Shown here: positions 19,503-54,616 of the stretch, one piece after another
Layout: every line of letters starts with the position of its first letter
Numbering within the stretch: the stretch's first letter is position 1
The notes under the pieces: model-generated
The model's database searches: none
Told to the model about the DNA's origin: nothing
What the model saw: only the letters and a program-made list of their open reading frames with translations
Made by a program: the position numbers and the translations under genes
Source: a virus
IMG/VR virus record: IMGVR_UViG_3300027734_000091
Span: 1 to 54,616 of that record
Direction: 5' to 3' (one strand)
DNA length: 54,616 bases

Positions 19503-19737
19503 GAAGAAAGAAGGTCAAGGAGTCGATGAACATCGCCACCGTTGTCTCGTTCGGTGGGTCATCACAAAGCGCATCCAAGATCGTGCTGGTGCAATCGAGT
19601 GGCTTGAGGGTTACCGTGACCACAATGGGAAGAATCACAGAGGATGGAACAACATTCATCCCAAGTCTAGACTTGAAGAGGATGTTAAGAATCAATGGAA
19701 CAAAGGTAACAGAGGAAATGAAGGCGAATGGAAATGA
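19495..19737 (+). CDS. DUF7696-like small phage protein
   Basis: This frame opens with TTG at 19495 and gives 80 aa. It contains E-H-R-H-R-C-L-V-R-W near the start and L-E-E-D-V-K-N-Q-W-N-K-G-N-R-G-N-E-G-E-W at the end. I associate this two-block pattern with small phage proteins near RusA (DUF7696-like). An overlapping frame (19499-19741) is also open and begins with ATG, but shows no such pattern. The start codon is uncertain because no strong ribosome site is visible. Confidence 0.6.
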   Translation: MNEKKEGQGVDEHRHRCLVRWVITKRIQDRAGAIEWLEGYRDHNGKNHRGWNNIHPKSRLEEDVKNQWNKGNRGNEGEWK

Positions 19738-20081
19738 TTGAAATCACACTACCTTGGCCTCCCTCGGTCAACACATACTGGCGTAACTTTGACGGTCGCA
19801 TGATTATCAGCGCAAGAGGTCGCGAGTACCGTGAAACTGTTGGTGACCAGATGACATTGCAAAAGATGGTGAAGCACTTCAAGGGTCAACTTAAGGTTGA
19901 GATTGAAGCATTCAGACCAGACAAACGACGCAGGGATTTGGATAACCTGCTCAAAGCTACGCTGGATGGACTAGCCCATGCTGGCGTGTACGAGGATGAT
20001 TCACAGATTGTTGACCTGCGCATTTACTGGGCAAAAGACATCGGTGGAATGTTGAAGATAAAAATTGAGGAACTCGAATGA
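19728..20081 (+). CDS. rusA: RusA-type Holliday junction resolvase
   Basis: The 117-aa protein resolves branched recombination intermediates. The RusA core is clear: P-W-P-P-S-V-N near the N-terminus, R-R-R-D-L-D-N-L-L-K with Asp 70 and Asp 72, then L-D-G-L and E-D-D-S-Q-I with Asp 90/91, the expected metal-binding acids. Length matches the family. ATG at 19734, overlapping the previous stop, is an alternative start. Together with SSB and the exonuclease it suggests recombination-driven replication. Confidence 0.9.
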   Translation: MEMIEITLPWPPSVNTYWRNFDGRMIISARGREYRETVGDQMTLQKMVKHFKGQLKVEIEAFRPDKRRRDLDNLLKATLDGLAHAGVYEDDSQIVDLRIYWAKDIGGMLKIKIEELE

Positions 20082-22605: not shown

Positions 22606-22759
22606 AACAGTAATGAGCGAATACATCCGAGGCTTTGATCACGGGTGCGACTACATCGTGACCGAGATAGAACGATACATCAAAGAGTGCAACAGCCATG
22701 ATGCACTGGTGCTAGTTGACTTGGTTAAGCGACTCAAGATGGAAGACAAACCAAAATGA
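22598..22759 (+). CDS. 53-aa early protein
   Basis: The small acidic peptide overlaps the previous gene by eight bases and the methyltransferase start by four. The C-terminal half is a leucine-rich helix ending K-R-L-K. No family is recognised. Confidence 0.55.
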   Translation: MSETVMSEYIRGFDHGCDYIVTEIERYIKECNSHDALVLVDLVKRLKMEDKPK

Positions 22760-23781
22760 AATTCATTGAATTGTTTGCAGGCATTGGTGGGTTCCGCCTT
22801 GGATTAGAGAAGGCGGGTCACGAGTGCGTGTGGGCTAACGAATTTGTACAAAAGGCGGCAAGTATTTATGAACACAACTTTAAACACAAACCAGACACTA
22901 GAGACATTAGAACTGTTCGACCAGACGAAATCCCAGATGCAGAACTTCTATGCGGAGGATTCCCGTGCGCGACTTTCAGCGTTGCTGGAAAGCGATCTGG
23001 ATTCTCGACAGAAGATACTCGCGGTACTCTCTTTTTTGAAATCTGTCGCATTCTCAGAGACAAGCGAATACCTTATGTTTTCCTTGAAAACGTCAAAGGA
23101 CTTCTCAACCACGATGGGGGAAGAACCTTTGCTGTCATCATCTCAAGTCTTGATGAACTGGGGTACGACGTTCAATGGGAAGTTGTTAACAGCCAAAATT
23201 TCGGAGTCCCGCAAAATCGAGAACGGGTATTCATTGTCGGACATCTTAGAGGACAACCCCGACCCCAAATATTTCCTCTCGGATTCTGCGTTTCAGAAAA
23301 TGTTCTCGAAAAAGAAAAAGGAACGCAAGGAGAAATTCGAGGATGCGAATCCGAATCAGGACGACCTGTTCTCATGCCTTTTGTAACAGGCAAAGTGATG
23401 CAATTCAAAGACGTGTTCCCAACACTTGATGGTCACTACTGGAAGGGAATACAAAACAATCAAGGTCGCGGTGCTGTGATGCAGGTGCGACCAGTTTTAA
23501 CGCCTCACCGTGATAGCAAACGTCAGAACGGTCGTCGCGTTAAAGATCACAATGAGTCAGCGTTTACGTTGACTGCTCAGGACAGACATGGAGTTATTGT
23601 TGGTGAGCGCCTGCGCAGACTCACGCCACTTGAATGCGAGCGTTTGCAGGGGCTACCAGATAACTTCACAAAGTTCTATGAGGACGGCACGCAAGTAAGC
23701 GATGCAGAGCGTTATGAGCGATGCGGTCGCACTGTCACCATTCCCGTTATTTACGAAATTGCAAAGAGGTTCCCATTATGA
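22756..23781 (+). CDS. DNA C5-cytosine methyltransferase
   Basis: The 341-aa enzyme transfers a methyl group from SAM to C5 of cytosine in a specific DNA sequence. Motif I is F-A-G-I-G-G-F-R-L-G (7-16), the catalytic P-C dipeptide is at 70-71, E-N-V at 111-113, Q-N-R-E-R-V-F at 153-159, and a target-recognition stretch precedes the final T-x-x-E-C-E-R-L-Q-G-x-P. All key residues are present. No partner endonuclease is visible, so it probably protects phage DNA. A second open frame of over 500 bases lies inside it. Confidence 0.92.
   Translation: MKFIELFAGIGGFRLGLEKAGHECVWANEFVQKAASIYEHNFKHKPDTRDIRTVRPDEIPDAELLCGGFPCATFSVAGKRSGFSTEDTRGTLFFEICRILRDKRIPYVFLENVKGLLNHDGGRTFAVIISSLDELGYDVQWEVVNSQNFGVPQNRERVFIVGHLRGQPRPQIFPLGFCVSENVLEKEKGTQGEIRGCESESGRPVLMPFVTGKVMQFKDVFPTLDGHYWKGIQNNQGRGAVMQVRPVLTPHRDSKRQNGRRVKDHNESAFTLTAQDRHGVIVGERLRRLTPLECERLQGLPDNFTKFYEDGTQVSDAERYERCGRTVTIPVIYEIAKRFPL
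22868..23386 (+). CDS. Candidate overprinted gene inside methyltransferase
   Basis: A second plus-strand frame stays open from 22844 to 23386; ATG at 22868 gives 172 aa. Its product has L-K-T-S-K-D-F, then L-M-N-W-G-T-T-F-N-G-K-L-L-T-A-K and S-L-S-D-I-L-E-D-N-P-D-P-K-Y-F-L-S, ending in a Lys/Glu-rich tail. I have seen this pattern annotated separately in other phages. It may be a real dual-coded protein or the out-of-frame image of conserved methyltransferase motifs. The ribosome site is weak. Confidence 0.4.
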   Translation: MNTTLNTNQTLETLELFDQTKSQMQNFYAEDSRARLSALLESDLDSRQKILAVLSFLKSVAFSETSEYLMFSLKTSKDFSTTMGEEPLLSSSQVLMNWGTTFNGKLLTAKISESRKIENGYSLSDILEDNPDPKYFLSDSAFQKMFSKKKKERKEKFEDANPNQDDLFSCLL

Positions 23782-24452
23782 ATTCTTGGACATTTGAATC
23801 AAAAGAAATTGCAGAGACATTTGACTCTCATGTGCGCGAACAGTTACCGTGGTACGACATGGTCACCGATGCGGTGGTTTACATTGCAAGTAACTACATG
23901 ACAAAGGGTTGCGTTATCACTGAGGTTGGATCATCAACAGGCAACATGACAAAGGCGCTGTTGCCAATTTTCAATGAGCGCGATGGGGTTAGTTATCAAG
24001 CCATCGAAATAAGCGAAGAAATGTGTGAGGTGTTTAATAAAAATATTCAACACCCGTTGGTTACTTGTATGCAAGCTAACATCTTAGACTTTTCAGACGC
24101 CAACATGGATGACGTTGATACAAGCCATGTCACCATTTTGTTTTTGACTTTAATGTTTATTCCCGTTAACGAGCGCGAAAAGTTAATGAAGATGTTGATA
24201 AAAAATTCATACAAAGGTGGATGCATTATTGTGGTGGACAAGGTGCTAGATCACGGCGGGTACTTTGCGACCGTCCTGAAGCGCCTTACCATGCATTTCA
24301 AGCTACAGCAGGGCGCCAAGCCAGAGGACGTGCTCAACAAAGAGATGAGCCTAGCAGGGGTGCAGATACCTATCGACCCAGCCATTCTGGGAGAGAACGC
24401 CAAACCGTTTTTTCGCATGGGTGAGTTTGCAGGGTGGGTAATTGAGACTTAG
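23778..24452 (+). CDS. Class I SAM-dependent methyltransferase
   Basis: The start was set at ATG 23778, overlapping the previous stop, with AGAGG upstream; this gives 224 aa. The SAM-binding loop is V-I-T-E-V-G-S-S-T-G-N-M-T-K, followed by an acidic Y-Q-A-I-E-I-S-E-E and a post-I region Q-A-N-I-L-D-F. The layout resembles CmoA-like small-molecule or RNA methyltransferases rather than a DNA adenine enzyme, as no D-P-P-Y motif is seen. The substrate is unknown. Confidence 0.75.
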   Translation: MNSWTFESKEIAETFDSHVREQLPWYDMVTDAVVYIASNYMTKGCVITEVGSSTGNMTKALLPIFNERDGVSYQAIEISEEMCEVFNKNIQHPLVTCMQANILDFSDANMDDVDTSHVTILFLTLMFIPVNEREKLMKMLIKNSYKGGCIIVVDKVLDHGGYFATVLKRLTMHFKLQQGAKPEDVLNKEMSLAGVQIPIDPAILGENAKPFFRMGEFAGWVIET

Positions 24453-24560: not shown

Positions 24561-25343
24561 ATGGAAAAAGCAAACTTCTCCCAACTCTTGAACGATGCCA
24601 TCAATCAGCCCGGTATCATCAGCAAGTGCTATAGCACCTTCCACGGCTACAGCCTTGGCAACCAACTCTTGGCATACAGCCAGTGCGTGGCACGCGACAT
24701 TCCCCTTGGCCCTATCGCCACATTCAAAAAGTGGAAAGACCTCGGTCGCTCTGTGAGTAAGGGTCAAAAAGCTATCGCCTTGGTAATGCCCGTCACCATC
24801 AGCAAAAAAGATGATGCAGGCGAAAAGACAGGCGAAGTGTTCTCATTGTTCACCCTGCGCAACAACTGGTTTGTGCTCGGTCAGACTGAAGGCGACGACT
24901 ACGCCGCTGAGGTGGTGATCCCAACATGGGACAAGGTCAAGGCTTTGGAAACCCTCAGCATCACAGAGGTGCCATTCAGCCACACTGATGGCAACTGCCA
25001 AGGCTACGCCTATGCGACCAGCATTGCTGTCAACCCAGTGGCTGTATTGCCCCACAAAACCCGTTTCCATGAGATCGCTCACGTCGTGCTCGGTCACACA
25101 AAGGAAGGTCAACTGTCAGACAGCGAAGCAACGCCCCGTGACGTGCGCGAAGTCGAGGCTGAGGGTGTTGCCTACATCCTGTGCTCTTTGCTCGGTCTGG
25201 AGGGCTTACACGAGTCTCGTGGCTATATCCAGAACTGGTTGCAGGGTGCAGAGGTAACCGACAAGACAGCCCAGCGCATTTTCAGCGCCGCCAACAAGAT
25301 TTTGGAGGCTGGACAGGATAAGGGTAAGTCCTTAGAAAAATAA
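24561..25343 (+). CDS. ArdC-like antirestriction metalloprotein
   Basis: The 260-aa protein has the ArdC N-terminal domain, with the pattern Y-S-L-G-N-Q-L-L and G-R-S-V-S-K-G-Q-K-A-I, which binds single-stranded DNA in the family. It also has a zinc-metallopeptidase-like domain with H-E-I-A-H at 170-174 and a later E-x-E-A-E. ArdC proteins shield incoming DNA from host restriction. It follows two methyltransferases and has its own promoter module, fitting an early defence-evasion role. Confidence 0.8.
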   Translation: MEKANFSQLLNDAINQPGIISKCYSTFHGYSLGNQLLAYSQCVARDIPLGPIATFKKWKDLGRSVSKGQKAIALVMPVTISKKDDAGEKTGEVFSLFTLRNNWFVLGQTEGDDYAAEVVIPTWDKVKALETLSITEVPFSHTDGNCQGYAYATSIAVNPVAVLPHKTRFHEIAHVVLGHTKEGQLSDSEATPRDVREVEAEGVAYILCSLLGLEGLHESRGYIQNWLQGAEVTDKTAQRIFSAANKILEAGQDKGKSLEK

Positions 25344-53834: not shown

Positions 53835-54526
53835 TGGTTACAAAGAAAGTCCCAGCCAAAGTAGCGCCTGTTAAGCGACGAACAGCCACACCAAAAGTTG
53901 AGGTTGCTTTTAAGCCAGAAGCCAAAAAAGATGACAGTACCGTTGGCAAAGTAATTGGCTTAATTGAGTGGGTGGATAATCCTTTTAAACTGTTCACGGT
54001 CATCTTGCTGTCGTTCCTGTTTTTTTTGGGCTATTTTGCTTGGGATTCACGCACGGTCATCCTGAACGCCATCACAAACTCAAGCCATCAGCCCCAACTT
54101 AAAGAGATCAAAGTTTTAGAACACGTTGCTGAAAGACTCAAGAAGGACTTGGAAGCTGAAACTGTTTTGGTTCACAAGGTAGCTCTTGTTGTAAACAGCA
54201 GGGTCACGCTACTTTCGTATGGCCCAAAGGGTCGAGACACTACTCTTGATGGTTACAACTCCACTCTGTTTGGCAAAGATGCTACCCGTAATGCCGCTGT
54301 CATTGCCATGATGAATGGCGAGGTGCATTGCGACAAGCTGGTTGCCTCTGGAAAAACATCGGACTGGGAAGAGAAGCAGGGCGTAGGTTACATCTGCCGT
54401 GGCTCTATTCCACCTGAAATGGGCGCATTTGAAGGCTATATTTCTGTTGGTTTTACCAAAGAACCGCAAGACCTTGGCGCTGTCAAAACGCGCATTAACT
54501 TAGCATCAACTGAAATGGCTAAATAA
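53834..54526 (+). CDS. Single-pass membrane lysis-region protein, complete
   Basis: The 230-aa protein has a Lys/Val-rich N-terminus and a membrane segment at about 54-71 (L-F-T-V-I-L-L-S-F-L-F-F-L-G). A short coiled coil and a periplasmic domain with V-H-C-D-K-L-V and Y-I-C-R-G-S follow. Its C-terminal part is also present at 3-389. Topology N-in, C-out would suit an endolysin or membrane regulator; the family is unknown. Confidence 0.65.
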   Translation: MVTKKVPAKVAPVKRRTATPKVEVAFKPEAKKDDSTVGKVIGLIEWVDNPFKLFTVILLSFLFFLGYFAWDSRTVILNAITNSSHQPQLKEIKVLEHVAERLKKDLEAETVLVHKVALVVNSRVTLLSYGPKGRDTTLDGYNSTLFGKDATRNAAVIAMMNGEVHCDKLVASGKTSDWEEKQGVGYICRGSIPPEMGAFEGYISVGFTKEPQDLGAVKTRINLASTEMAK

Positions 54527-54616
54527 AATGGCACAGTTTGAACCAGCTTTTGAGCAGATGATGAAAGACGAGGGCGGCTACGTCCTTCACGAAGTACCCA
54601 ATGACACTGGCGGTAT
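54138..54616. repeat. Terminal direct repeat, right copy
   Basis: It matches bases 1-479 except position 54160 (A against G). The right copy keeps the whole 230-aa gene and the first 89 bases of the endolysin gene. A single difference between the copies suggests either strain variation in the sample or a sequencing error. Confidence 0.95.
54528..54616 (+). CDS. Endolysin gene, truncated by window end
   Basis: This is the first 29 codons of the GH108 endolysin, identical to 391-479. It is cut only by the window end; the full gene is at 391-906. Confidence 0.9.
   Translation, partial: MAQFEPAFEQMMKDEGGYVLHEVPNDTGG

Follow-up and report, generated by a model that had tools for sequence, protein, structure and literature searches.

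In the C5 cytosine DNA methyltransferase M.EcoHK31I, the coding sequence of the small polypeptide lies within that of the large one, in a different reading frame. The enzyme (YGGCCR) is described, in the part of PMC3404938 that cites Lee et al. 1995, as being composed of a large and a small polypeptide, with motif IX carried by the small one. M.AquI (CYCGRG) is split once, and its second polypeptide, with motifs IX-X, completes the small domain (PMC3404938). When the chain of a C5 enzyme is interrupted between motif VIII and the recognition domain, either naturally or artificially, the pieces reassemble to an active enzyme (PMC3404938, PMC5944983). A pair annotated as C5 methyltransferase alpha and beta subunits is also found in Streptococcus phage MM1 1998 (GenBank DQ113772, orf13/orf14), where beta is nested in the +1 frame of alpha and motif IX/X belongs to alpha.

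The locus described here shares this last layout. It lies in a stretch of DNA of 54,616 nucleotides from an uncultured virus record (IMGVR_UViG_3300027734_000091), hereafter referred to as the window; the features of alpha and beta given below are all on its plus strand. The beta of the window displays 51% identity over 138 residues with that of phage MM1 1998 (tblastn E 4e-23 for the MM1 1998-type beta subunit) and its alpha is composed of 341 aa versus 385 aa in this phage, the likeness being one of sequence only. The window resembles M.EcoHK31I by its two polypeptides, the small one nested in the large one, a comparison based on the described architecture, but motif IX is in the small polypeptide of M.EcoHK31I and in the alpha of the window. 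E. coli genomes searched with the conserved 231 bases for a relative of M.EcoHK31I gave no match. The second polypeptide of M.AquI completes the small domain, as is proposed here for beta, but the window has motifs IX-X in alpha and thus is not an M.AquI-type split. The single-chain enzymes M.HhaI, M.HaeIII, Dcm and M.MpeI are homologues of alpha and need no second protein. The window is assigned to the known two-subunit class of C5 enzymes, and within it to the subtype of which phage MM1 already has an annotated example.

The alpha gene (22756..23781) encodes a C5 cytosine DNA methyltransferase of 341 aa in which motifs I-VIII, IX and X are all present. It passed the curated cut-off of PF00145 (280.5 bits for a cut-off of 22, E 2.8e-83) with the catalytic motifs present, and matched TIGR00675 dcm (E 6.8e-86) and M.HhaI (phmmer, E 5.5e-54). 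Its PC motif, ENV and QNRER are all invariant or nearly so among 38 sequences. Residues Q153, R155, E156 and R157 of the motif VIII core QNRERV (23212..23229), which is also read in the +1 frame within beta, are unchanged across these sequences, as are R287, T290, P291, E293 and C294 of motif IX. The latter (RLTPLECERLQGLPDNF, 23614..23664), identified by alignment to motif IX-X of M.HhaI, is present in alpha and absent from the translation of the beta ORF. The fold predicted for alpha (AF2) is similar to that of M.HhaI, motifs I-VIII and IX-X folding alike. Codons 177-233 (23284..23454) are mostly predicted to be disordered, with pLDDT values below 50 for residues 177-215 and 221-233. Single-chain enzymes carry a beta-like element in this region; the alpha of the window is devoid of any in-frame KYFLS-type element after motif VIII.

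The initial annotation had reported a long second plus frame inside the methyltransferase gene, and this frame was recovered exactly as described: the +1-frame ORF of alpha extends from a TTG at 22844 to 23386 (180 aa) and contains LMNWGTTFNGK and SLSDILEDNPDPKYFLS. TTG 22844 was rejected as the start of beta, since the frame is interrupted by a stop just downstream of its position in many relatives. For this reason, and because 27 of 29 deduplicated relatives retain ATG 22868 (codon 38 of alpha), the two others lacking it at that codon, the start was moved to this ATG, which from the sequences compared is most likely the true one. Beta is accordingly delimited from ATG 22868 to its TAA (22868..23386) as a predicted protein of 172 aa, supported by its match to phrog_16143 (PHROG 16143, E 9.4e-31; conserved core at 22925..23299), the kept ATG, the open frame and the synonymous constraint. 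Its putative ribosome-binding region, located inside alpha (22848..22867), is of AAGGAG type in many relatives, and an SD of at least 5 nt precedes the beta ATG in 15 of the 29 relatives versus 4.4% of background positions; that of the window itself is weak (aaggcggcaag, score 0).

The length of the ORF is by itself weak to modest evidence for beta, an equally long +1 ORF being obtained in 22 of 2000 synonymous-codon shuffles of the alpha gene (p ~0.01); the comparative conservation is strong evidence. Frequent stops among relatives, or synonymous rates equal to those of the rest of the gene, had been put forward in the initial annotation as signs against a second protein. The beta frame is open across the conserved region in all of the 40-odd viral relatives checked, and also in bacterial and archaeal ones, and synonymous rates are lower inside the overlap. 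The four-fold degenerate third positions of alpha correspond to second positions of beta codons; among 29 viral relatives they differ in 34% of comparisons in the overlap core versus 66% outside, and four-fold divergence is lower within the overlap in all 14 disjoint pairs out of 14 (sign test p 1.2e-4). The stretch of lowered synonymous divergence begins around the beta ATG and extends about as far as the conserved part of beta does. Constraint is strongest at 23236..23325, where 10-14% of comparisons differ at four-fold sites versus 66% outside, with a divergence of 0.095 (9.5%) at alpha codons 161-175. The earlier proposal that two proteins are encoded by one stretch is therefore upheld by the reduced synonymous change, the conserved start and SD, the absence of stops and an independent annotation.

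The distribution of beta is broad. By tblastn it matched 199 phage records, mostly of Streptococcus, and 54 plasmids, and a scan of one genome per species retrieved 29 beta loci in many phyla and one archaeon. It occurs in Bacillota, Bacteroidota, a Desulfocapsaceae MAG, Fermentibacteria, Shapirobacteria, a Methanosarcinaceae archaeon and phages, and was also found in a Methanobacterium virus. All 95 beta matches (at least 40 bits; loci from different searches, including several redundant copies of the same contigs) overlap a C5 methyltransferase gene in frame +1, and none is located away from one. Over the same codons, control C5 genes from 61 Bacillota genomes, picked regardless of beta, contain 4-13 stops, with the exception of the seed genome's own pair (0 stops) and of an EcoHK31I-like gene, L132 (2 stops). 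In the single-chain C5 genes L015/L108 and L091, 10-11 stops interrupt the +1 frame there.

An element resembling the last third (~50 residues) of beta, L-DIL..D.KYFLS, is found in-frame after motif VIII in the single-chain enzymes L015 and L091, and relatives of the latter chosen independently of the motif (L141-L143) retain a KYYL block at this place. A viral search with the L091 protein returned no relatives. In beta, the corresponding element (WG-NGK-TAK...SLSDILE..DPKYFLS) spans 23153..23302. Aligned with hhalign, beta and the in-frame element gave a probability of 95.5 and a score of 54.8, the best of 100 column-shuffled decoys scoring 19.2. Once the KYFLS block was removed, the score was 21.8 for a decoy maximum of 22.6, one of the 100 decoys being equally good, a score within the decoy range which indicates that the similarity is concentrated in this block. 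The resemblance noticed earlier between the second frame and an in-frame inter-motif region of other C5 enzymes thus holds, mainly through KYFLS. The structural model of beta is confident only for residues ~121-155 (pLDDT 87-93 for ~121-150) and poor outside them, N-terminal part included (mean pLDDT 58.8); this model matched no PDB fold, and the beta profile had no significant match among PDB sequences. Natural fusions also occur. In L060/L061, L067 and L089 (L060:3001-4069, L067:2260-3385, L089:2128-3604), alpha terminates a short distance past motif VIII, and the recognition region and motif IX/X are encoded by a continuation of the beta ORF, so that beta and the small domain form one chain there. 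The loci L060, L067 and L089 resemble the M.AquI split, whereas the window does not.

These observations show dual coding, a conserved start, +1 linkage at every locus, a C-terminal part of beta similar in sequence to the in-frame element, and the existence of fusion loci. Considering sequences, models and analogy together, the locus very probably corresponds to a two-subunit C5 cytosine DNA methyltransferase encoded by one DNA stretch, in which the predicted beta would give a small-domain element in trans. Alpha, in frame 0, would bring the catalytic motifs I-VIII, a variable target-recognition region and motifs IX-X, and beta, in frame +1, would have an independent start at ATG 22868 within the alpha message. 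Beta would most likely bind alpha and contribute, in trans, the segment with which the small DNA-binding domain of single-chain C5 enzymes opens after motif VIII; both polypeptides together would then make up the active enzyme. The physical association of alpha and beta, the need for both subunits and the biological role are what we infer from this architecture; the product would presumably methylate the phage DNA and thereby protect it from host restriction.

The possibility that the second frame is a mere echo of methyltransferase motif conservation, with no protein behind it, was evaluated by shuffling synonymous codons within each alpha gene, protein and codon counts being preserved, and scoring the +1 frame with a beta profile from the opposite set (cellular genomes for viral genes, viral for cellular). 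The +1 frame of the window scored 152.4 bits with the cellular-genome HMM, whereas 300 shuffles had a mean of 78.4 and a maximum of 111.2, and in each of the 16 genes out of 16 none of the 300 shuffles matched the observed score. The echo suspected in the initial annotation does exist and is considerable, shuffled genes retaining about half of the beta score, and the ORF length at the probability given above is also in its favour, but it never reaches the observed score and fails to account for the conservation of beta. The reduced four-fold divergence, the conserved ATG and SD and the stops in ordinary C5 genes argue against it as well. Already contradicted by the synonymous-site and shuffle tests, this explanation is extremely improbable, and beta is judged from the compared sequences to be a real overlapping protein, more than an echo of alpha. 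The large echo in the shuffles is also a warning: when a distant C5 gene matches the beta profile weakly in its +1 frame, homology is not thereby proven.

An origin of the second frame in an old frameshift, as also envisaged in the initial annotation, or a programmed frameshifting joining alpha to beta, appears very unlikely. The C-terminal half of the enzyme is in the beta frame in L060, L067 and L089, which implies a past frame change in evolution, but in the window frame 0 encodes an intact alpha that reaches through motif X, beta possesses a conserved ATG of its own, frequently preceded by an SD, and the same bases are read, and under selection, in both frames. Moreover, the element of single-chain enzymes is located downstream of motif VIII, on different DNA, and a search behind it for a duplicated motif VIII or a frame-shifted remnant revealed nothing. 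A real beta with a separate function, for instance a regulator or an anti-restriction protein merely sharing the methyltransferase DNA, would fit with its lack of sequence match among solved structures and with an N-terminal part that folds poorly alone. This alternative is nevertheless unlikely, considering that beta is never without a C5 methyltransferase in the 95 matches, that in L060, L067 and L089 it forms one chain with the recognition region and motif IX/X and that its C-terminal element is in-frame in single-chain C5 enzymes.

Besides the subtype of the window, an EcoHK31I-like group (L062/L101-L107, L117 and L118) is composed of short alphas without recognised motif IX, plus +1 ORFs. 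The beta of L062, the one fully read member of this group, ends in a motif-IX-like MGFP..W, as described for M.EcoHK31I. A relationship of this group with the beta of the window is suggested by profile scores that are only partly above the echo level; these scores were rejected as a proof of homology, since synonymous shuffles score similarly in several genes of the group. Genes 89 and 88 of Mycobacterium phage Cookiedough (L116:1344-2343), both annotated as "DNA methylase", share 155 bases, read with a +1 frame offset, and this pair is a further predicted, divergent, C5 enzyme both split and overlapping.

Downstream of alpha, a class I SAM-dependent methyltransferase gene (23778-24452) overlaps the alpha stop by ATGA, and is followed by an ArdC-like gene (24561-25343) encoding ArdcN (E 3.8e-10) and a zincin-like peptidase. 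These genes suggest a possible anti-restriction cluster. A RecA-dependent nuclease (PF16786, 21172-21471) and a RusA resolvase (19728-20081) are encoded upstream of the methyltransferase. GGCC is strongly under-represented in the whole window (38 occurrences for ~179 expected), AGCT and CCGG are also low and YGGCCR occurs once. A direct repeat of a few hundred bases is present at the record ends (~21-479 and ~54158-54616), exact 30-mers at 100, 300 and 400 recurring at an offset of ~54137; the record may thus be a complete genome with terminal repeats.

A tentative reading, which we regard as possible but doubtful, is that the L-DIL..D.KYFLS element has two alternative genetic arrangements: single-chain enzymes encode it in-frame downstream of motif VIII, and split enzymes read it from the +1 frame across motifs VI-VIII. 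As the same DNA cannot be the ancestor of both, this would imply either a convergence by overprinting in the overlapping frame or a copying of the overlapping ORF in-frame by single-chain enzymes. If true, either route would be rare, with a gene's second frame having given rise to a needed part of the enzyme that the gene encodes.

The two-in-one layout is of a known kind but rarely noticed, and its conservation across many phages, bacteria and archaea is established here; the overlap represents a widely conserved same-strand dual-coding region of ~400 bases. The relatives being mostly annotated as one methyltransferase gene, the second subunit is usually missed, and recoding the codons of a cloned alpha would silently remove beta. 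The family comes with built-in controls, namely single-chain relatives without the overlap and natural fusions revealing what beta belongs to, and offers a concrete system in which to study how an enzyme can come to have one of its needed parts encoded in a second frame.
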